DNA from: Anadara kagoshimensis
Lineage: Eukaryota; Mollusca; Bivalvia; Arcoida; Arcidae
Direction of reading: 5' to 3'
DNA length: 64,000 nt
NCBI GenBank assembly: GCA_021292105.1
Contig: CM037857.1
Span: forward strand, 36,897,932-36,961,931
The translations under genes and the position numbers were made by a program. The notes under the pieces are model-generated. The model had not been told where the DNA came from, did no database searches, and was given only the letters and a program-made list of their open reading frames with translations. Within the stretch, counting starts at the first letter, position 1. Every line of letters begins with the position of its first letter. Below are positions 3,801-21,800 of the stretch, one piece after another.

Positions 3801-6800
3801 CCACAAAGGATTTGTCAATAGGTCATGACCATTGATGTTGGTTTACATTTGTGCCAATCCATAGATCTATCTCTCATTACAACTCCCCCTCCTTATAAAG
3901 TACTCTGAGTTGGGTGTGCTGCTACTTTAAAAAGTAAAAGAGTAAAAGAATATAGTGCAAAAAATTTCTAAAGTTTGAAAAAGACAGGGGGTAAAAATTA
4001 ATTAAGTAAGATTAAAGTAATAGTATGTACAAATAAAAGATAAAAGAAATTTTGGTGTTTAGGGTCTGGGGTGATGTAATATGCCAGCCTGGATAAGGAA
4101 GATATGGAGCAGAAAGCCTATTGGAACAGATGGAAGGATAATTCCCATACACTGACATAATGATAGTAAGTTAGAATGGTGTTTTTAGGCTACAATCAAG
4201 ATAATTTTACTATATGAAGACAGAAAGTTCTGGATTGTAGATGAAACTGTAATATCCAGAGCACACACCAGGGGTTACCTCATTGTAAAAGCTACATTTG
4301 TCATTATTTTTAGATGGACTTTATAGACAGTTTTGACTGTACATGTCACAACAATTGACATTTACCTGCAAATAGCCTTTGGTTTTAGCTCACATTTTGC
4401 ATTACAACAGGCGTCACCTTGGTAACCAGCATCACATTCTTCACCTTTTTCAAGTCTGGCATTGCCACAAAGTGCCCCCTTTTTATTCAGTGGTTCTACA
4501 ATTTACCAAGTGTAGTACATAAAAGTACATATTTCAGTTAATAAGGAAGTGAGCAAAATAATTTTGTAATGACCTACAGAAGAATAGGTAGAAATTTATA
4601 GAATTGGAAGCTTTCACTAAAGACGTGTGTATATAATTCTTAAATCAATCAAATTACAAAAAGTCCATTAATTCAACACATTAATCCATATATTGGTGAG
4701 TTGAAAAATTTGTGTCAAATTCAAATGAATTTTCCTGCAATAAGTCGACATATTGAAACTCGAACAAAATGGGATCTCGCGAGATCATTCTTTCTTTCTG
4801 GAGATCCCTCTACTGTCTAGTGCACCACCGTTAACAGTGTAAAGACAGAGAATGCATAAATTGTCTGTAACTAAAGTTTTCATATTATTTGGGAATTTTT
4901 CCTAAGGAATATAGAAAAGTAAATTAAGAGTTTCTAAAGGTTTGACCTAGTAATTAATCATTTGGCCTATGCTGAAAATTAGAGTAAAACCTTGTCACAG
5001 AACTTTGTCTGCTGTGCTTTTTTAATGGTCACAATGTCAGCCATATTACCCTTATAATGTGTTTATAATGATAAATAATAATGCCTACCATGACATACAA
5101 CATTAGTTTTTACATCTTATCAAATGGAAGCCAGAACATTATTTTCTAAATGTTGAGTGCATCCTCTTGCTGTTCAATTGAATTTCAAAGTAGCATTGAC
5201 ATTGTGCTACATGAAATTGAATGTCAATTCAATGTTGACAATGCCAAATTGAAGTTCATAATGCAAATATGATGTCAACAATAGGTTATAACATCACATG
5301 TGTTTGTATGACACCATTAGTTAACGGTTGTTTTTATTCTGAATTTTAAACTTTTCATTTTTTGTATTTTGTTTCCTTTACACACAGAATATGAGTACAA
5401 CTTGTAACCAGTTCCATCGAAAGGACATATGTGTACCTGTGGCAGGCTGCAAAGAATCACATACTGTACAGTTGTTTAATTCCGCAGGGGGAAAATATTG
5501 CGGCTCCAGCTAATACTGAAACTTATTCATGGGTATAAAATTTCACGGGGCAGTGGCCAGTATTAACAATATCCTTTACAAATTATCTAAGTCTATGTTT
5601 AATAAAATTTCCACTTGGTATTAATTTTGTGCTAAAAAGTCAAACCACTAATATAGCAAAATTAAATCCCAAGTGAATAAAAGCAACTATACAGTATCCT
5701 ATGTGGCAGTGTATCAGTAGATGACAAGAGTATAAAGGAGCAGTTTTTACTCATATTACAGTACCAGGTCAGATCACATTAAAGGAGTCATACCAGTAAT
5801 GTTTTCTATGGTCAAACACAAGATTCGTGTGAATGTTAAGGCATGAGATATAACAATGGTGATAAGAAGTTAGGTCCATGGACTAGTGATGCTTTACTTT
5901 TCAGTCGAGTATTTCATTTATATTGAGGCAGGCAGCTCAGGGTTGGTGGAAAAAATAAAAGTGCCAGGAGAAAAGCAATGATGTTCTGTAACTGACAAAC
6001 TTTCTCAAACTAGCATCTTAAACTGAAACCTAGGCAGTAAGAGGCACTAAAAAATAAAGAAAACCAATATCTGTACATGTATAGAGGAGGGTGCATTATG
6101 AACATGATGAAATACAAACTCTTTTGAGATAATACTACACTTCAGATATTAGAGACCAGCTGACAAGATAAGAGTTGAGTTGAGTAATGGTGTTTAACGT
6201 CTCAGTCAAGAATATTTCACTTATATCAAGACGTTGCCAGCTATAGATGAAGGTGCAGAAATTTTGTCTGTGCGTTGCGCTGATGGCATTATACAGCAGG
6301 GTTCCTCATCATGCCAAGCCCACCATGACATGGGACTTCATTTGTTTTAAGTTCCTATCCGAAAGAACCGTGACTTTCATTTCGTAATTCTGAGTGCTTG
6401 GCAAAAGAACAGTCACTACCCACTTTCAAGTCTTGGGTCAGACCCTGTCGGGGCTTGAACCCACGACATCCCACTTAGGAAGGGAGGACAAAATTAGAGG
6501 AACATACATAGAAATGTACGTACATGTTCCTCCACTACAACAATTTGTGAGTAAGTGATAATAATGAAAAGCAAAAATGTTATGGGTATCATGCATGTCG
6601 GTCACTGATTTTAGAAAGAAATATAGATTTTAAGTTACTTACCAGAAAAACAACTAAAACCTTTGTTTCTTATTACTTGAAACATAAACCTTTTACTGCA
6701 TGGTGAAAAAATCTGAAATAGAAAAGTTCTAGATGATAGTTTTAGCGATATATACATATTATATACAGTGTGTACATCGTATATACAACCCTTCGTAACG

Positions 6801-9800
6801 ACACTTTATGTAGAAAAAATATATTTCATAACAAAAAAAACACTGAACTATATTCATGACACATGTTCTGTAGTAATAACACCATGATTTAATTTGACAA
6901 ATTGGAGATTCCAATTATGGTGATACAAGATTCTGTATCATATGTGTATTTTGTATTTTGGTAAATTAGGTAGAAAAAACTAGTCTAATGTTAAATAAAA
7001 ACAGTGATTGATAACCTAGATATATTTAGATAATTATATATCGATTTATTTTAAATGATGTTTATGTCCAAAAACCTAGTAATGTTTGGTACTCCTATGC
7101 AAAGAAAGGAATAACAAACAAGAAGACAAAATAGTACCATAATCCTTGGAACCTCAACCTTATATTATTATATATTTTGTAATTAATCTTTTTTTTAACA
7201 TTTTGTAAATTATAGGGTAACAATGAATTAATTAACACATTGCTTGTTTTATTAATTTCTTTTACCGTATAGACTGAAGTAGTTTTTATCAGGCTTCAGC
7301 CATTCACAGAGGTAATACTTAGATCTGTCAAGCATGTCTGACAATATGTGAACCATAATAATCACAAACATAGTCAAATTGACCAGGGGTTTTACATATA
7401 TACAGCTTGTTTACTTACCTGATTATTTGTCTGATAGCCACTGGTTGCCCTTGGATACATGATATATTTTCCTCCCTCCTCAGACTTAGGTGAACACTGA
7501 TCGGTGTCTGGATCATGTTCACTTCCCCAGTTATGAGCTAGAAAATAGAAACATTTTAGCTTAATGCTGAACTAAACTGGTCTACCTTTTGTTATTACAG
7601 TAACTGTAGTCTACACAGAATATTTCAACTGAGCAACTAATGCATGGTGTCAATTGATTATCAAGTTACGTACTGCTTTCTAACTGAGAATCAAAAATTT
7701 CAAAAATTAAAATTCAAAATCTCATTTGTTAAAAAAATGAAAAGGTTTTTTTTTCGCACACAGAGGGCAACCACAAAATCAATCTTCATACATAGATTCG
7801 ACCAGTTTAAATGAAAGAAAAAAATATTTTACTCCACAGATCTGTTAAATCTTTCAAATACATGCATTTCACTTGTAATTTCTAGCAAAATTGTGATTTA
7901 AAAGGTCTTGGGTTCAAATTCCAGTCTGGTTGCATGGTTGTGCGATTTAAAAGGTTTTGGGTTCAAGTTCCAGTCTGGTTGCATGGTTTGTCTTTGATAG
8001 GGGTTCACAAGCATACATTATAATAACCCATAACATTTGTGGGGGAATAATTATTTCCACTGGAAATGGAATCACATAATTTCCTCATAAAAATCTCATT
8101 TTATTAACTGAATTTACAACCTAATCATTACTTTATCATTCTAGACAATCATTAAGAGGTATTGATCATATGATATTCTAGAAAATCCTATTTCACATCT
8201 TCCAAAACCAGATAGCTGACAGATAAAGAGGTCCAAAGTCCCCGAGCAAGTTAATTGATTAAATGTGGTTTTACATCCCAGTCAAGAAAATTTCACTTAT
8301 ATTGAGACATACCAGCTATTGGGCGAAAATGCAAAAAAAAATTATGTTTGTAGTGCATGCACTCAGGCAATTAATTAAATGTTGTTTTGTGCCCCTGTCA
8401 AGAAAATTTCATTTATATCTAAATGGCATCAGCTATAGATGAAGATGCAAAATTTTCACCTTTGTAGTGCACTTAGCAATATACAGAGAAGGTTATTTTA
8501 CATGTCACACCTGCCGTGACACAGGTCATCGGTTTTATGGGGTCTTCAGAAGGACCCTATGAGTAAGTAAAGAGTTAACTAAGGTATACTTACCTAGTTC
8601 TGTAGTATATAGTAAGGTATGGGGCCAGAGTCAGGAATATTAATATGAAAAAGAAAACAAAATAAGAAATTAGAGAACAAAACAACAAACAGTATAGGTC
8701 CACTTGACCTTTAATTTAAATATTTGTCCCGGACCAAGTACCGGTACATCTGGAACACAAGTGTTTATTTTGTACACATCATGAGATATACTCACCCCAT
8801 AGAGTAAACCTGTGTAGTGTGTATGCATTAACTTGGATCTTAACACTACCCATGTAGTGGGTGGACCCTCCAATATGAATATTCCTAACAAAAGGTCAAA
8901 CGGACAGGTCAATGTTGTTTGCCTACACAGTATTATAATAGTGATCAAATACAAAACATTTAAAATGTGTATCCTGGTGACAGTTTTCAATTCATAATAC
9001 TGTGTATGCGATAATGTGTACTTTATAAATGAAATTTTTGGAAATTTTAAATTTATAGTAAACATTGAAAACTGTTGTAAAGACAACTTTGTCCATGATC
9101 AGCTGCTTAAAGAAAGGGCAAAATTAGATCCCATTCTACTACATATAAGTAGTTCTGATACCTAATCATCTACTGTCTAAAATGTGATAGTACCTTCATT
9201 ACATAGTGACAGTCTGTCTAAAATTACCTTAATTTGACTGACCATACACAATTTGCTATTTTTAAGCTGATGTGGCCAGAGAAAAACTATTGAACTTTGG
9301 CTGATAAACTCTCTCACTCAAGGATCTGCCCAGAGTCAGGTTGGAAACTTGGTGATGAGAGATGCTAGGGTTACTATCTAGACTTTAATTTGGATTAGCA
9401 TGTGCTGTGTCCAGAGTCAGATTGGAAACTTGGTGATGAGAGACACAAGTGTTACTATCTAGACTTTGATTTGGACTTACAATGTGCTGTGTCCAGAGTC
9501 AGATTGGAAACTTGGTGATGAGAGACACAAGTGTTACTATCTAGACTTTGATTTGGACTTACATGTGCTGTGTCCAGAGTTAGATTGGAAACTTGGTGAT
9601 GGGAGACACAAGTGTTACTATCTAGACTTTGATTTGGACTTACCATGTGCTGTGTCCAGAGTCAGATTGGAAACTTGGTGATGAGAGACACAAGTGTTAC
9701 TATCTAGACTTTGATTTGGACTTACCATGTGCTGTGTCCAGAGTTAGATTGGAAACTTGGTGATGAGAGACACAAGTGTTACTATCTAGACTTTGATTTG

Positions 9801-12800
9801 GACTTACCATGTGCTGTGTCCAGAGTAAGATTGGAAACTTGGTGATGAGAGACACAAGTGTTACTATCTAGACTTTGATTTGGACTTACCATGTGCTGTG
9901 TCCAGAGTCAGATTGGAAACTTGGTGATGAGAGACACAAGTGTTACTATCTAGACTTTGATTTGGACTTACAATGTGCTGTGTCCAGAGTAAGATTGGAA
10001 ACTTGGTGATGGGAGACACAAGTGTTACTATCTAGACTTTGATTTGGACTTACCATGTGCTGTGTCCAGAGTTAGATTGGAAACTTGGTGATGAGAGACA
10101 CAAGTGTTACTATCTAGACTTTGATTTGGACTTACCATGTGCTGTGTCCAGAGTTAGATTGGAAACTTGGTGATGAGAGACACAAGTGTTACTATCTAGA
10201 ACTTTGATTTGGACTTACCATGTGCTGTGTCCAGAGTCAGATTAGAAACTTGGTGATGAGAGACACAAGTGTTACTATCTAGACTTTGATTTGGACTTAC
10301 AATGTGCTGGTCCAGAGTAAGATTGGAAACTTGGTGATGAGAGACACAAGTGTTACTATCTAGACTTTGATTTGGACTTACCATGTGCTGTGTCCAGAGT
10401 TAGATTGGAAACTTGGTGATGAGAGACACAAGTGTTACTATCTAGACTTTGATTTGGACTTACCATGTGCTGTGTCCAGAGTTAGATTGGAAACTTGGTG
10501 ATGAGAGACACAAGTGTTACTATCTAGACTTGGACCAGGGCCGCGGAAACTTCGGTCCGGCCCGTCGGACATTTTTTGTACAGGCAAAAAAAAAAAAAAA
10601 AAAAAAAAAAAAGGTCGTCGGCACAGGGCTGTCTATGCGTGCATGTTGTGGTTTATTTTGTCAAACTAACCAAATAAATTTTTTGAGCTACCGCGATTGC
10701 CAATTTAAATCCATGTGCGTTATTAGATCACGATGTTGAGTGTGTATTAGGTTAAATCTAAGACTAAGACGTTTACGAAAGATATTAATGCCTAAACTTT
10801 TATTAAAATAAAATTTTATCGGGTTTCTGTATTTATTAATAAAGAAACAGTTAAGCACGTAGTAGGCAATATTCAACACCCCGCGTGGAACCTCTTTAAT
10901 AACAAACCGTCACCCTTGACCGACACTCGTTATGGCTTCCGTAATCAACACACTTATTATTAAACAAACACACGTTTAACGAAAGTTATTATGATTCACA
11001 CTGGGAAACAAAAGAAATAGACAGTAAGACACGCGGCACGCGACTACTTAAGTCCACAGGTAATTACTGATTAATAAACAATCACCTGATTGTTAGATCA
11101 TACTGTTGTTGACAGGTAAACACATGGTAAGGACAATACACTTAGTGAAGTCAGGTAGAGTTTAAAAGACCGACAGACAGACTAGCAGTAGTTTACTTTT
11201 GTCGGACCGAAAACTGATTTGTCCGTTTAATATTCCAGTTGTAAAATTGAAAATGTCCGAAAACAAAAAATGTCCGACTGGTGATTTTTCACGTCGGTCA
11301 AAATAAATTTTTGTCGGACATGTCCGGCAAATATGAACGTTTCCGGACCTCTGATTTGGACTTACCATGTGCTGTGTCCAGAGAAAGATTGGAAACTTGG
11401 TGATGAGAGACACAAGTGTTACTATCTAGACTTTGATTTGGACTTACCATGTGCTGTGTCCAGAGAAAGATTGGAAACTTGGTGATGAGAGACACAAGTG
11501 TTACTATCTAGACTTTGATTTGGACTTACCATGTGCTGTGTCCAGAGTCAGATTGGAAACTTGGTGATGGGAGATGCTAGGGTTACTATCTAGACTTTGA
11601 TTTGGACTTACCATGTGCTGTGTCCAGAGTCAGATTGGAAACTTGGTGATGAGAGACACAAGTGTTACTATCTAGACTTTGATTTGGACTTACCGTGTGC
11701 TGTATCCAGAGTAAGATTGGATACTTGGTGATGGGAGATGCTAGGGTTACTATCTAGACTTTGATTTGGACTTACCGTGTGCTGTGTCCAGAGTCAGATT
11801 GGATACTTGGTGATGGGAGATGCTAGGGTTACTATCTAGACTTTGATTTGGACTTACCATGTGCTATGTCCAGAGTCAGATTGGAAACTTGGTGATGAGA
11901 GACACAAGTGTTACTATCTAGACTTCGATTTGGACTTACCGTGTGCTGTGGTTACAGTAGCCTGCGATGTTAATGCCCTGGTGTTACTACCTGGATTTTT
12001 GTAGGAACTCACACCTGTGTTTACAGCTATTCTGCCATTTCCCACCCAAATTGCTGTGCAAAAAAAACCAAAAAAAAAGCAAGTCAAATACACTCCAACC
12101 TGCCTAAAAGGCCACCTCTATACAAGGGCCACCTGCCTATAAAGACCAGTAGAATTGTATCCCAATTGTTCTTTATTCATATTATTTAAACCTGTATATA
12201 ATGCCCACCTGCACATTAAGGCAACATTTACTGGTTTCCTTGTGTGGCCTTTATGGACAGGTTTGACTGTACATGTAAATATACTCAAAAATATTATTAT
12301 GCAGTTTATGCATACACAAACCTTGGATAACTAGCAGATTATAGACAATTCCTGCTACATTAAACATTGTCATTTTAACTTATATACATGTAGTTCTCAA
12401 AATATGTACATTTACATGTGTTGTCAGTTGAAAAGTGTGCATTACAACCAATTGAAATGATAAGAATTTTTGCCCTTTATCTTTTGTCATTTTAATATGT
12501 ATGTATATAATTGTGTCAATTTTATTCGTTATCTTTAGAAAGTGTCATTCATTCACTATTTCCTGACTGTTTAATACTTTACACAATGTACATAAAAATG
12601 CATACCAATCTATGTCCAAAAAACGATCGCAAAGCAAAGCAAAACTTTGAAACTGACAAATTATTATGTTAAAACATATAGTCCCACTAATATTGGGAAT
12701 AGGGAAGGCTGTAATCTAAAACTCAAATCACAACAAGTGCTACTACTGTCAAGACTCCAACAAGTAACTAATAATACAAGAATCTTTACATTCTTATCCA

Positions 12801-15800
12801 TTGTAACATAACAACCTGTCCCTCTGACTTAAAAATTTCGAGGACAATTCCAAGAGTTAAATTAGATTGAAAGTTGATTGTGTGTGACATCGCAAAAATC
12901 TGAAATGTAAACATCACAATGAGCTGTGATATGTTGTCATGGCTTCGTGTGACATGTGATGTGACACTATGAAATATTACATAGACTACTTGGCAATGTT
13001 AGGAGAATCAAGTACATCCTTTTTCATTGAAAGATGATTTTGTTCTAGTCTTCTTACTTGTGTAAAGAAAAATTCAAGCCTTGTTTGGTTGATTTTTTAA
13101 CATGACTGTTAAGAAAAATCATCTCCTGATTTTAGAAGGGTAAGAATATTTTATTTCTTCTGAAAAATTAAAGTATTCTGGCAAGAAAAATACCTACGAT
13201 GTGAACATATTCCCCCAGCATCATTTATTCTTGCTGAAGCGATGTAAGCCAGTCCAAGTTTTCCTGGAAAAGACTGGAACGTGAAAAGATGGGCCAGGCA
13301 GTGTTTCACTCTCTTTACATAATCATCACCAAATATCTGTAAATATATATATAAGTCCATATCATAAATAAAACTATAAAAAATCCTATTTTCTGAATAA
13401 CCGACTATTATTCCCGAAATATAACTTTTGTGATTCTTTTGCTAAAACCATTTCATCACTATAAACTATTGCAATATTAACTTAAGCCGAATATTTGGTA
13501 TCAATAATATAATTTTATAAAATATAATTATGTTGATTTACTTTTGCTATTATTTTTTACATGAAACATGCTAAATTAATCACAAGCGATTAAAGATGGT
13601 TACAGTATATTGGGACAATTGGTCACTAAACTGTGTTGAAATAAATAAATAAAGTTGAAGATTTCAACACAACCCAGAACTTTCTGTTACAGGTGCCCTG
13701 AAATACCTAGACCGGTTTCTTTGTAATGGGAACTTATCAGTTGACTATTTGGGGAGATAATTTTTTTAGATTTTTAGGGGTGAAGTTTGTTCGGGTATAT
13801 CTAGGGAGTGACACGAGTGTATTGGTGGACTAAGACATTAGATGGACACGCCTCAGTCCTTCACTGTACTTACATCTAGTAATCAATCCATGTCAGTTTT
13901 TCTATTTTCTTGACTATAATGATTGTTACTAGGGAGTGACGTGAGTGTATTGGTGGGTGGAGACATTAGATGGACACACATACTTACATCTAGTAACCAA
14001 TCCATGTCAGTTTTTCTGTTATCTTGATTATAATGATTGTTACTAGGGAGTGACGTGAGTGTATTGGTGGGTGGAGACATTAGATGGACACGCATACTTA
14101 CATCTAGTAATCAATCCATGTCAGTTTTTCTGTTATCTTGATTATAATGATTGTTACTAGGGAGTGACGTGAGTGTATTGGTGGGTGGAGACATTAGATG
14201 GACACGCATACTTACATCTAGTAACCAATCCATGTCAGTTTTTCTGTTATCTTGATTGTAATGATTGTTACTAGGGAGTGACGTGAGTGTATTGGTGGGT
14301 GGAGACATTAGATGCATCTAGTAACCAATCCATGTCAGTTTTCTGTTATCTTGATTGTTATGATTGTAACTAGGAGTGATGTGAGTGTATTGGTGGGTGG
14401 AGACATTAGATGGACACACATACTTACATCTAGTAACCAATCCATGTCAGTTTTTCTATTATCTTTATTGTTATGATTGTTACTAGGGAGTGACGTGAGT
14501 GTATTGGTGGGTGGAGACATTAGATGGACACACATACTTACATCTAGTAACCAATCCATGTCAGTTTTTCTGTTATCTTGATTATAATGATTGTTACTAG
14601 GGAGTGACGTGAGTGTATTGGTGGGTGGAGACATTAGATGGACACGCATACTTACATCTAGTAATCAATCCATGTCAGTTTTTCTGTTATCTTGATTATA
14701 ATGATTGTTACTAGGGAGTGACGTGAGTGTATTGGTGGGTGGAGACATTAGATGGACACACATACTTACATCTAGTAACCAATCCATGTCAGTTTTCTGT
14801 TATCTTGATTATAATGATTGTTACTAGGGAGTGACGTGAGTGTATTGGTGGGTGGAGACATTAGATGGACACACATACTTACATCTAGTAACCAATCCAT
14901 GTCAGTTTTTCTGTTATCTTGATTATAATGATTGTTACTAGGGAGTGACGTGAGTGTATTGGTGGGTGGAGACATTAGATGGACACGCATACTTACATCT
15001 AGTAATCAATCCATGTCAGTTTTCTGTTATCTTGATTATAATGATTGTTACTAGGGAGTGACGTGAGTGTATTGGTGGGTGGAGACATTAGATGGACACG
15101 CATACTTACATCTAGTAACCAATCCATGTCAGTTTTTCTGTTATCTTGATTGTTATGATTGTAACTAGGGAGTGACGTGAGTGTATTGGTGGGTGGAGAC
15201 ATTAGATGGACACGCATACTTACATCTAGTAACCAATCCAAGTCAGTTTTTCTGTTATCTTGATTGTAATGATTGTTACTAGGGAGTGACGTGAGTGTAT
15301 TGGTGGGTGGAGACATTAGATGGACACGCATACTTACATCTAGTAACCAATCCAAGTCAGTTTTTCTGTTATCTTGATTGTAATGATTGTTACTAGGGAG
15401 TGACGTGAGTGTATTGGTGGGTGGAGACATTAGATGCATCTAGTAACCAATCCATGTCAGTTTTTCTGTTATCTTGATTGTTATGATTGTAACTAGTGAT
15501 GTGAGTGTATTGGTGGGTGGAGACATTAGATGGACACACATACTTACATCTAGTAACCAATCCATGTCAGTTTTCTATTATCTTTATTGTTATGATTGTT
15601 ACTAGGGAGTGACGTGATTGTATTGGTGGGTGGAGACATTAGATGGACACGCATACTTACATCTAGTAACCAATCCATGTCAGTTTTTCTATTATCTTGA
15701 TTATAATGATTGTTACTTTGTGTTGGCTCATTATGAACTACCACCTAAAATAGAAAAATTCAAATAATAAACTTAATATAGTATTATGTAGGTACCAGGA

Positions 15801-18800
15801 GAATAGCTGGACAGTTAAACTGATAACAGAGTCTCTGTACTATAACTGTTACATTGATGACAAGAGAATTTCTGGACCACAACTACTAAACTGATAACAG
15901 GAGAGTCACTTGACATGTTAGTTGCCACACAACTACTAAACTGATAACAGGAGAGTCACTTGACATGTTAGTTGCCACACAACTACTAAACTGATAACAG
16001 GAGAGTCACTTGACATGTTAGTTGCCACACAACTACTAAACTGATAACAGGAGAGTCACTTGACATGTTAGTTGCCACACAACTACTAAACTGATAACAG
16101 GAGAGTCACTTGACATGTTAGTTGCCACACACTTACTAAACTGATAACAGGAGAGTCACTTGACATGTTAGTTGCCACACAACTACTAACTGATAACAAA
16201 AGAGTCACTAGACATGTTAGTTGCCACACACTTACTAAACTAATAACAGGAGAGTCACTAGACATGTTAGTTGCCACACAACTACTAAACTGATAACAGG
16301 AGAGTCACTTGACATGTTAGTTGCCACACACTTACTAAACTGATAACAGGAGAGTCACTTGACATGTTAGTTGCCACACACTTACTAAACTGATAACAGG
16401 AGAGTCACTTGACATGTTAGTTGCCACACAACTACTAAACTGATAACAAAAGAGTCACTAGACATGTTAGTTGCCACACACTACACTAATAACAGGAGAG
16501 TCACTAGACATGTTAGTTGCCACACAACTACTAAACTGATAACAAGAGTCACTAGACATGTTAGTTGCCACACAACTACTAAACTGATAACAGGAGAGTC
16601 ACTTGACATGTTAGTTGCCACACACTTACTAAACTGATAACAAGAGTCACTGGACATGTTAGTTGCCACACAACTACTAAACTGATAACAGGGGAGTCAC
16701 TAGACATGTTAGTTGCCACACAACTACTAAACTGATAACAGGAGAGTCACTTGACATGTTAGTTGCCACACACTTACTAAACTGATAACAGGAGAGTCAC
16801 TAGACACGTAAGTTGCCACACACTTACTAAACTGATAACAGGAGAGTCACTAGACATGTTAGTTGGCACACAACTGCTAAACTGATTACAGGAGAGAAAC
16901 TGGACATGTAAGTTGCCACACACTTACTACACTGATAACAGGAGAGTCACTTGACATGTTAGTTGCCACACAACTACTTAACTGATTACAGGAGAGTCAC
17001 TAGACATGTTAGTTGCCACACAACTGCTAAACTGATTACAGGAGAGTCACTAGACATGTTAGTTGCCACACAACTGCTAAACTGATTACAGGAGAGTCAC
17101 TAGACAGTACTGAAGATACTGGAACTATCATTTAAATTTGTAATGGAAAATGACTGTCTAGCATATTCACAGATAAAAGTCATTTTACAGGAAACAGACA
17201 AACTATGTAATGCTTCTCTACAAATATTATGGGCAATCATGTAATACAGTAAAGCTATTGATCATCAATATTACAGTATCACATTGTATCATACAGAAAA
17301 AATACAACAGGAGGATGGCAAGTTAAACACAAAGTTGCCTGGTTTTAAACATTCTACGTTTGGCTATATTGCATTAAGAATGTTATGCAGTTTATCAAGA
17401 GGGTTCTTAACAATGGGCATCATTCTTTGTGTGTTCATGGATCCCAGATTTTAAAATCACATTAGAGAAGCAACTTGGAAATGTCTATAAATGAAAAGAA
17501 GCTTAAGAATTAATTGAAAATTATACAGTGTTTTCACGATCAATTAGGACTAACAAAATCAAGGTGGTACATGTAGAACAAAACAGACTTTTTCCTATTA
17601 AAACAAATATCAATTAAATCTATATTTTTAAAGTTCACGTATGATTCAGATGAACACTTTTTGGAAAATATGGCTAAAAACCATTACCTTATAAACAATA
17701 TATATTAAGAAGATGCTACCTCCTAATTTTAAGATGTCTAGAAGTACACATTAAACACATAGTGACTTACCTCTGCTATTTCAAATCCTAAATTTTTCAA
17801 TGTTGAAGAATCATCAGGCCAACTTGTTTTTGTGTATATGTTGTTTATATTGTTAATCATACTTATCTGCAAATACAGTACAAAAACCATGATACAGTCA
17901 TTAAACAAAAGTATCAGCACTTTTTTTCATCCAGTATATATGTGAAATCAACTACTTTTCCAAAATATTATCCATGAAGTTATGATGACTTAATTTATTC
18001 CTGGATCAATTTTGATAATATCTTTACTGTAATAAGCAAAATTAATGGTTGATTTTTCTTGAATTTTGACATTTTTCTCTACCTTTTTATGATTTTTATT
18101 GTCCAAAACCTTAACTATAAGAACACAAGTGTCATGGTTGGGACTGCTGGGTTTACTTGCAATTTTACAATTGTTTTAATACATCAATGTATAAGTTTTA
18201 AGGGAGATAAGTCAATAACTTGAGAAGTGTCAGGACAAGTGACTTATCTCCCTTAGACTATGATCAACAAATGAAAAAAATGAAAAAAGTTTAACATACC
18301 CTTGCTACAGTAACATGTCTTTATTACTGTATAATGAGAATATTTGTTATGTATTCATATTCATCATTTTAATGATCACATCCTAACATAAAATGAACGT
18401 TAACAAAGAATATAAACATATGATCATTTTTATTGTTTTATTGACATTAGTAACCTTGGAGATCAGAGTAATAGTACAATTCTAATAACATGGCTTTATT
18501 ACACATTAATTTTGGGACAGATTTTACAAGTATGATTTTTAGAAAAAAAATATATAAAGTTAACAGTCTGTCTTTGGTATACCCAGAGTTCATTCTATAA
18601 GGAGTTGTGGGGCCATTGATCCAATATTTGCCAAATGACCCACCCCATTGTTAAGGCCTAAGCGGATTGTATTTAACATTACATGAATATAAAAAATATT
18701 GATGTTATGGTGTTAAGAGTGAAGTTTTTGAAACTGGTCCCTTTAAAAAAATCCTAGAATGAACACTGTATACTATAAATATTTGATCAAAGCAAACATG

Positions 18801-21800
18801 TTTACATACCAAATATTCAGCTGTTCTGTGTTCATTTCCGCCTCCAATTCCATCATGAAAGTAGTGATCTGCGACCAGTGATAACCTGCATACCGTATGT
18901 GTTCCGACATAAGGTAAAGATCTCTTATAACGACCTATAAATACACATATACAATAATTATCATTAATCTATGGATGGAAAAGGTATTTTACAGCAACCT
19001 ACATCATAATTAATGTCATAGATTTTCTCAAGGCAAAGTGCAAAATCTACTACAATAAGTAATACCGTTAACTAAAATGTGGTTCAATTCAAAAGTGTCC
19101 ACCTAAACTAACCCCAAATGGGAATCACGAATCATGTGCACGATCAAAATAAAATAGCTACTGGCACAATTACTACACCAAAAGATTGTTTCTGTAACAT
19201 TTCATTCAGATCTGTTTAGTGGTTTTAGAAGCAGACAAACGTGTGCAGAAGAAAAGGAGTGAAACTATATGTTCCACCACTTTGTTTGTAGGACACAATA
19301 AAATCTGGAGATAAACAACTTCAAATTAAGTAAAACTGTTTGTTAAACAAAGAAAAAACGCTTATGTTTTTAATCAAATATTAACTTCATATCCATTCAT
19401 AATTAGATACTTTACCTGAATGTTCATCTTCGTCGTTGTCATGCATAAAGGGAGACAACTTAATATCATCTTCAAAATCTGCCACTTCTTTTGATTTTAA
19501 TTTTTTCTTGCTGAATCACAAAAACTTTTTCTGGAAAGAATAGTTATATAATATGTATTATTAACAGTCTTAATCATGCAATGTAATCATTTCAGAAAAT
19601 AAAAACATCCACCAATCTTCCAAAGCTTATTTACCAATACAAAATCTCATTATTTAACTAGTAGTAGTAACCCTTGTATAATGTCAAAAATATATGTTTG
19701 TGTAAAGGGTAATCAATCTAGAACTGTCTCTTAAGAGCCAAATACCCCCAACCCCAACACTGACCTTCTGACCTGACCACACCAATTTGGTATCACATCG
19801 CCTCATTTTGGTTTACATTTGTGCCAAGTTTGATCAAAATCTATACATAGACATGGAGGGTATGGAGCGGACAGGATATTCAGACAGACAGACATACAGA
19901 GAGACCTATACCCCTGTAAACTTCATTTGTGGGGGTACATGATAGGGATTTACAGTAAAATCTTGAAAAACTATTTTCTCCTGAAACCTCAATATCAAAA
20001 AGAAAAGGTTAACAACATCACTCAATCAATCACTCAATGAATCAAATACAGATATTGTCAACATACTTGCCCGTCGTTCCTTGTAACATTCCATTAGGTG
20101 TCCATTTAAGATCAGATTGACGATAAGCTATCATGTCATGGTCTGGTGAAGAATCCAGGTGTCTCCATGATGGCTAAAATAACACAAAATAACGTAAGAT
20201 ACTATAAGAGTGCATGAAACTATATTAAGTCTAAAGAAATTGTAAATACATGTATTAACATTTTATGGGTACTTTGTGGAAGAATTCACTAGAATTTGCA
20301 ATCAATTTTACTTTTGACAAACAAGAACTTTTTTCTGAAAATATCACTACATATTCACATAGTGACAAAGAATTGTGCTGCAGTGTATGGTGCACAGAAA
20401 GCCAAAGCATGACCGACACATGACATTCTGTAAAACAGAAGGCTAAAAGGGCCGTAAGAACAATCCAATCACTATGCAGAAAACAACAAATAAAAAAAAT
20501 AAATATAAATGTAGTCTGTTATGAAAACATGGCTTTGTGTTTTTTGTTGACAGTTTCTTCACAACTATTCAGGCTGATCAATTCGACAGATTTATCTGTT
20601 TTTGACAGATTTGTACCATTAAAATGGAAAAACAGAAGGATAAAATGAAACGGTCAAACTAGGCAGATTCTGACCATTTTGACATTTTTTTTATTAAAAG
20701 TACTAAAAATTCAGGGTTTATGTATGGAAATTGTACCAAAATCAAACACATAACAATAAAAAAGTACCTAAATGGCAACCTTGCACACTAAAAATGTTCT
20801 GATCTGGACAAATAAATAAATTTGATTGGTTAGCCTAACTATTTGTTGACAATTTCTCTACAACTACTGGGTTGATTTCACTTTTAAAACTTTTTTTGCA
20901 TAACCTATGCTGGTGCTTCAAAAATAGAACAAAAAGTGAAATTCTCAATGTTTTACCTAAGGACCCATTTTTGCATATGGACGGTCAAATGAATAAACAC
21001 TGAATTTCACTAGATGTGAAACACACTGCCCAAACCCTGTATCATAAAATGATAGGGTATAAACCACTGAATTTCACTAGATCATCTAGATGTGAAAACA
21101 CACTGCCCAAACCCTGTATCAAAAATGATAGGGTATAAACACTGAATTTCACTAGATGTGAAACACACTGCCCAAACCCTGTATCAAAAATGATAGGTAT
21201 AAACACTGAATTTCACTAGATGTGAAACACACTGCCCAAACCCTGTATCATAAAATGATAGGGTATAAACACTGAATTTCACTAGATGTAAAAACACACT
21301 GCCCAAACCCTGTATCATAAAATGATAGGGTATAAACACTGAATTTCACTAGATGTGAAACACACTGCCCAAACCCTGTATCAAAAATGATAGGGTATAA
21401 AAACCTTAAGTTTAAGCTTACAGTCAAAATATTTGAATTGTATTACCTCAACAAAATACATATCTCATCAGTATGATACTGGCTGTCAATAAATCGTTCT
21501 CCAAGTGGACACTGACCCGTGATCTTTTGTCATCTACAATAAACCATACACCAAATTTACAGTAATGTTATCATTTATACAAGAGGGCCATGACAGCTCT
21601 GGACACTTAAACTGACAAACATTTGTATTTTGGCTCGATTGGAATAATGCTAACTTAGTCCCTTTCAGTATATTTGAAGTAGAAGACAAATTTCTTAAAT
21701 AAGCAGCAAGTATGGAGTAACATGTACATGCAAAAACATATTCACAAAAGGAAGTAGGAGATAAACTTAATCCAAATCCAAAAAGAAGCAGACAACTTCT

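Follow-up and report, generated by a model that had tools for sequence, protein, structure and literature searches.

The ADAM17-like gene in the window (the whole 64-kb stretch of DNA that was analysed) appears to carry a six-nucleotide exon that supplies the catalytic glutamate of its zinc-binding motif. With a probability of roughly 0.9, the hexamer AACTAG (8599-8594) is a true exon, included as a rule, that goes back to the common ancestor of the seven ADAM17-like genes detected in this genome and provides the Glu and the hydrophobic residue after it. Position, phase, Glu and the following Leu/Phe are conserved in the seven genes, and the reading frame is open. A microexon is an internal exon of about 3-27 nt, and the Glu of HExxH is the catalytic base of this metalloprotease family and essential.

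The gene lies on the minus strand and runs off the window toward position 1. Its exons were located by tblastn with a fragment of human ADAM17, some of the matches being weak, and the exon borders were set from consensus splice sites and open phase (Table 1). The numbers 11 and 13 are those of the first-pass annotation, with the exons upstream of the catalytic domain uncounted. RYKR in the exon at 18810..18934 resembles a furin-type site. The match of exon 11 to the human fragment is weak when taken alone (E 0.12); position, phase and paralogs also point to its identity. Putative disintegrin-like and Cys-rich matches to the human fragment come next toward position 1, at 4484-4368 (E 2e-7) and, less clearly, at 3708-3601 (E 0.09), 2199-2140 (E 0.3) and 856-788 (E 0.45); no transmembrane part was seen before the gene leaves the window.

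The spliced product is a Reprolysin-type domain of 250 aa with HExxHxxGxxHD and a Met-turn (HELAHNWGSEHD..KYIMYP). In phmmer, its best PDB matches were ADAM17/TACE chains (E 4.8e-54; best ADAM10: 5.4e-25), and it aligned to human and mouse ADAM17 over residues 13-249 of 250. Both the PDB match and the side of the tree on which it falls place it closer to ADAM17 than to ADAM10. The score for Pfam Reprolysin_5 was 112.8 bits with the two microexon residues and 100 bits without them.

Table 1. Features of the ADAM17-like gene in the window
Feature	Positions	Strand	Basis or remark
First catalytic-domain exon, RYKR..CRLSLVADHYFH..	18810..18934	-	splice sites, phase
Catalytic-domain exon ISMINNINNIYTKTSW..	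17771..17866	-	splice sites, phase
Catalytic-domain exon VVVHNEPTQSNNHYNQDNRKTDMDWLLD	15661..15744	-	splice sites, phase
Exon preceding exon 11 (IFGDDYVKRVKHCLAHLFTFQSF..GGICSH)	13198..13336	-	splice sites, phase
Exon 11, 114 nt, ..IAVNTGVSSYKNPGSNTRALTSQATVTTAH+G, first His of HExxH	11940..12053	-	tblastn E 0.12, phase, paralogs
82-bp satellite, 7.3 copies, up to true exon-11 donor	11352..11950	-	repeat analysis
82-bp satellite, 14.7 copies, units copy exon-11 end and donor	9330..10531	-	decoy CAG|CACATG|GTAAGT in most units
Intron upstream of microexon, 3340 nt	8600..11939	-	splice-site borders
U-rich tract, 41-100 nt upstream of microexon	8640..8699	-	62% U against intron mean of 32%
Microexon 3' splice site region, ..ccccataccttactatatactacag|	8600..8639	-	sequence
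Probable microexon AACTAG	8594..8599	-	phase 1 on both sides; same-position, same-phase counterparts in six paralogs
Microexon 5' splice site GTAAGTAT	8586..8593	-	GTRAGT match 6/6
Intron downstream of microexon, 1056 nt	7538..8593	-	splice-site borders
Exon 13, 119 nt, (A)HNWGSEHDPDTDQCSPKSEEGGKYIMYP.., with the Met-turn and the remaining zinc-ligand His residues	7419..7537	-	splice sites, phase
Exon next after exon 13 (IFSPCSKRFMFQVIRNKGFSCFS)	6643..6712	-	splice sites, phase

On the minus strand, exon 11 ends with ACA GCA CAC G|GTAAGTCC at 11940 (donor gtaagtcc), and exon 13 begins with ..TTTTCTAG|CT CAT AAC TGG at 7537, which reads CT-HNWGSEHD. Hence, a direct join of the two exons lacks the HExxH glutamate: it gives TTAHAHNWG in an open frame of 248 aa, in agreement with the first-pass annotation. 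Joining exon 11, AACTAG and exon 13 gives TTAHELAHNWG, open over 250 aa, and HExxH is restored. The hexamer completes the Glu codon (G|AA), encodes Leu (CTA) and begins the Ala codon (G|CT). The 20-mer CTACAG|AACTAG|GTAAGTAT had a single exact match in the window, on the minus strand at 8605-8586, and was also single-copy in the 1.115-Gb assembly. This match places the hexamer exactly where it had been annotated, at 8594..8599. A search of the assembly for the spliced junction, allowing up to three mismatches and skipping very common words, returned no copy.

The central proposal of the first-pass annotation, that the catalytic Glu comes from a six-nucleotide exon (together with Leu or Phe), is supported by the sequence, the phase, the open frame and counterparts in six paralogs. 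Also supported is the further proposal that the integrity of the active site depends on recognition of the hexamer. The loss of Glu and Leu on skipping would be in frame, as had also been predicted: an essential residue goes, as it does when the mini-exon of plant GH32 enzymes is lost, and the product stays open at 248 aa.

A search of the assembly with the 80-residue active-site region gave ten matches: the two window exons, six exon-13 homologues on contig C14 (at 9.97, 10.82, 14.62, 16.00, 48.76 and 50.65 Mb) and two ADAM10-like matches. The latter (C2:20.5 Mb and C12:6.32 Mb) were excluded from the count of ADAM17-like genes. Searches with two other queries returned the same seven ADAM17-like genes. 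Weak extra matches were seen at C18:58.76 Mb (E 0.93), at C12:10278447 (E 0.08) and in two short stretches of C14 (E ~7). For each C14 gene and for C12, ~20 kb upstream from exon 13 was taken for analysis. No relatives were found among 45 pattern matches in prokaryote genome contigs or among 27 in viral contigs.

All six C14 genes showed the same arrangement. The last letters of exon 11 give (T/V)AH+G|gt. Exon 13 opens with ag|GA or ag|GT and continues as CAT AA(C/T) TGG, its phase being the same, and between the two exons lies an intron with a six-nucleotide exon in the right phase: AACTAG twice, AATTCG, AATTTG and AGTTTG twice. Including the window gene, AACTAG occurs three times (window and the 14.62/16.00 pair). 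The very short internal exon has both a 3' and a 5' splice site in each of the seven genes, and GTAAG follows the hexamer directly in all of them. The motif is thus split in the same way throughout, into His+G, six nucleotides, and the rest of the Gly/Ala codon with HNWG. The spliced C14 motifs read HELGHNWG or HEFGHNWG. Between the 48.76-Mb and 50.65-Mb genes, the microexon shows a synonymous change in the Phe codon (AATTCG/AATTTG). The distance between the flanking exons ranges from 1.1 to 4.4 kb, and the introns are very different. The first-pass annotation had proposed to look for the microexon in other bivalve ADAM17 loci; conservation was found in six other ADAM17-like genes, a comparison within the same genome.

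These genes do not represent seven independent cases. There are three close pairs (9.97/10.82, 14.62/16.00 and 48.76/50.65 Mb). Over the aligned parts, intron identity within a pair is about 90% (in an alignment with many gaps), 95% or 99%. Together with the window gene, this makes four lineages. Hence, position, phase and coding are conserved in 7/7 genes and four lineages of one genome. The members of each pair have the same orientation, and the pairs are either recent duplications or uncollapsed haplotypes.

The ADAM10-like genes of this genome (C2:20.5 Mb, C12:6.33 Mb and C12:10.28 Mb) are M12B-type matches with HE(L/I/V)GHxFG. Their motif is unsplit, in one reading frame, in 3/3 genes, whereas it is split in the seven ADAM17-like genes, which are M12B-type as well. 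In a small tree built from hand-joined rows and carrying a long-branch warning, the ADAM10-like genes were separated from the seven ADAM17-like genes and human ADAM17 with a support of 95/97. The tree gave no firm place to human ADAM17 among the seven genes and did not single out an orthologue of the vertebrate gene. At C2:20506700-20507317, the ADAM10-like protease is encoded by a single open frame of 874 codons, which is perhaps a retrogene.

Several introns contain satellites that repeat exon ends. In the two 82-bp arrays of the window, CAYAGCACAYG|GTAAGTCCAAATC has 16 matches, the true exon-11 junction included, and the exon-11 intron is lined with putative decoy donors. The arrays are interrupted by ~800 bp at ~10532-11351, with a run of 27 A at 10586-10612, perhaps an inserted mobile element. 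A 114-bp satellite at 13867-15717 (minus strand, 16.6 copies) repeats the last part of exon 15744-15661 along with the adjoining donor; the junction-spanning 23-mer has 11 exact matches there, including the true junction. At C12 ~6.321-6.333 Mb, in an ADAM10-like gene, a 70-bp satellite of more than 100 copies repeats the end of the active-site exon FAHEIGHNFGSS and its donor; GCTCACGAAATC has 126 matches, 117 of them across the junction. Counting the two in the window and the one on C12, at least three introns of genes from this superfamily contain junction-bearing satellites in the genome. Further intronic arrays lie at 15878-17106 (50-bp units, 24.8 copies) and 20993-21401 (~67-bp units, 4.8 copies). 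At ~45.9-55.1 kb of the window, the translated match MCVLHLYTY recurs every ~1.3 kb, at least eight times among the matches listed, which suggests a large tandem array.

In each of the seven genes, the donor of the microexon agrees with GTRAGT in five or six of its six positions. Three of the four lineages have pyrimidine-poor acceptors: the last 20 nt before the AG contain 8, 8, 9, 9, 8 and 8 pyrimidines in the six paralogs, whereas the window gene has 13. Of the two introns, the downstream one is shorter in 5/7 genes, and in the 10.82/9.97 pair the two introns are near-equal (558 against 546 and 557 against 544). The search for shared regulatory motifs covered U content and counts of GGG. 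At 41-100 nt upstream of the microexon, the window gene has a marked U-rich tract (share of equally U-rich intron windows 0.004), as does the 14.62/16.00 pair (0.010 and 0.005). In the 9.97/10.82 pair the tract is moderate (0.037), and the 48.76/50.65 pair shows no marked one (0.160 and 0.127). As one lineage has no marked tract, it does not seem to be a common requirement, and its case as a shared splicing element is weakened.

From the genomic sequence we infer that the hexamer is present in the mRNA, and how it may be spliced. The strong microexon donor would probably pair first with the nearby exon-13 acceptor (intron definition). The six bases would then be fused to exon 13 in a composite exon, 125 nt in the window gene, which would subsequently be joined to exon 11. 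The donor match, the poor acceptors and the shorter downstream introns fit a removal of the downstream intron first. For the 9-nt exon of potato invertase, the downstream intron is reported to be removed first (PMC4674806), and detention of upstream introns is described as more frequent for plant microexons (PMC8831610).

A hexamer of this kind could arise by chance, in which case the gene would be a pseudoprotease without HExxH. In dinucleotide shuffles of the stretch between exons 11 and 13 of the window gene, the loose pattern AG|ARNNNG|GT occurred on average 0.43 times, a point in favour of chance. The strict pattern AG|AR(CTN/TTN)G|GTRAG was found in only 4, 1, 1, 0, 0, 1 and 0 of 2000 shuffled introns for the seven genes (4 for the window gene), an expectation of ≤0.002 per intron. 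On the antisense strand, the stretch between exons 11 and 13 of the window gene has one loose and no strict match, and strict matches are absent from the antisense strand of all seven introns. The first-pass annotation had spoken of one perfect candidate. This holds insofar as AACTAG is the only sense-strand AG|A(A/G)NNNG|GT in the 4.4-kb stretch between exons 11 and 13; the intron is not clean, as it contains 19 other AG|N6|GTRAG hexamers (CACATG, CACACG and CACATT) with equally good donors in the 82-bp satellite, none of which encodes Glu. In the 16.00-Mb intron, AACATG is a further loose match, and its donor (gttta) is weak. Ranked by donor match as the sole criterion among those AG|N6|GT hexamers that lie over 60 nt away from either end of the intron, with CACA-containing (satellite) hexamers left out, the Glu-encoding hexamer comes first in 7/7 introns; if kept, many satellite hexamers would tie with AACTAG in the window gene because they carry GTAAGT. 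The shuffles, this ranking and the same-place, same-phase counterparts in six further genes, four lineages in all, led us to reject a chance origin, which is very improbable. Nor is AACTAG|GTAAGT at all likely to be a recursive-splicing (ratchet) site, at which the long intron would be removed stepwise with nothing left in the mRNA. The hexamer does end in AG before GTAAG in 3/7 genes (window and the 14.62/16.00 pair). In the other four it ends in TCG or TTG, so there is no AG|GT junction, and we rejected this reading; it would also leave the Glu codon without explanation. We give equally little credit to a Glu from another exon, such as an alternative to exon 11 or 13. Our exon calls were made from the genome, which leaves room for such an exon, but no result points to one: neither HEL[AG]HN nor T[TASV]HE occurs in any frame of the 64-kb window, and the window intron has no second AG|ARNNNG|GT on its sense strand. 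This reading was rejected on the absence of the motif, and readthrough of the exon-11 donor was rejected as it gives TAHGKSKSKSR and then a stop.

An old, normally included microexon is most likely on the sequence evidence. Its inclusion is probably constitutive, because the enzyme without the hexamer should be dead. A real but regulated microexon, the shedding switch put forward in the first-pass annotation and not supported here, is a rival to constitutive inclusion only and is compatible with a real exon: skipping would depend on tissue or stimulus and yield a dead in-frame isoform without Glu and Leu, maybe as a brake on shedding. Such a switch is conceivable, as most acceptors seem weak and the frame would survive skipping. 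The skip product of the window gene stays in frame, as would be the case for any six-nucleotide exon of these genes, and the pyrimidine-poor acceptors in three of four lineages would allow skipping. Very short exons are prone to it: when the 9-nt potato invertase exon was exchanged for a 6-nt one, more than 50% of transcripts were reported as skipped or otherwise affected (PMC4674806). Against regulation, the donors match GTRAGT at 5-6/6 in every gene, and the presence of the exon in each paralog fits an exon that is needed. We consider regulated skipping unlikely. A little less likely still is a seven-gene sheddase family gated by the shared six-nucleotide exon between active enzyme and dead decoy, with the window satellite (~20 copies of the exon-11 donor) tuning the choice.

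These findings point to an animal enzyme family whose defining residue may depend on an exon of just two codons that is kept through gene duplications. As seven genes share this design, ordinary gene prediction could wrongly call the enzymes dead. The microexon will probably escape gene predictors and protein databases, and the proteases are then likely to be listed as HExxH-less pseudoproteases. Moreover, microexon recognition becomes testable across seven genes with very different introns.

Like human and mouse ADAM17 (TACE), the window gene has the catalytic domain with HExxHxxGxxHD and the Met-turn; the human motif is HELGHNFG, that of the window gene HELAHNWG. One description of mouse ADAM17 assigns the catalytic zinc-binding domain to exon 11 (PMC6404580), which suggests that a microexon split is absent there. 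In titles and abstract openings, no published microexon of ADAM17 or of a metalloprotease active site was found, which is no proof of absence. Six nucleotides are also the length of an exon in chicken cardiac troponin T (cTNT), which is not known to be part of an enzyme active site. That microexon is reported as constitutive (PMC4674806).

The closest precedent would be the 9-nt mini-exon of plant acid invertases and their relatives, and the exon described here its metalloprotease counterpart. The plant mini-exon encodes the DPN of NDPNG with the catalytic Asp, is conserved in phase 1 and is described as missed by annotation, with none annotated in rice and maize; chicory 1-FEH IIb without it is described as an in-frame, transcribed and putatively dead allele (PMC4477480, PMC4579127, PMC8831610). 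Cold-induced exon skipping is reported for an invertase transcript (PMC8483784). Common to both systems is a conserved microexon in phase 1 that encodes an acidic residue used in catalysis. The GH32 exon belongs to a plant glycoside hydrolase and encodes three residues in 9 nt, whereas here six nucleotides of an animal metalloprotease provide Glu and Leu/Phe. Inclusion and cold-responsive splicing are experimental findings for GH32, whereas inclusion in the seven ADAM17-like genes is predicted from the genome.
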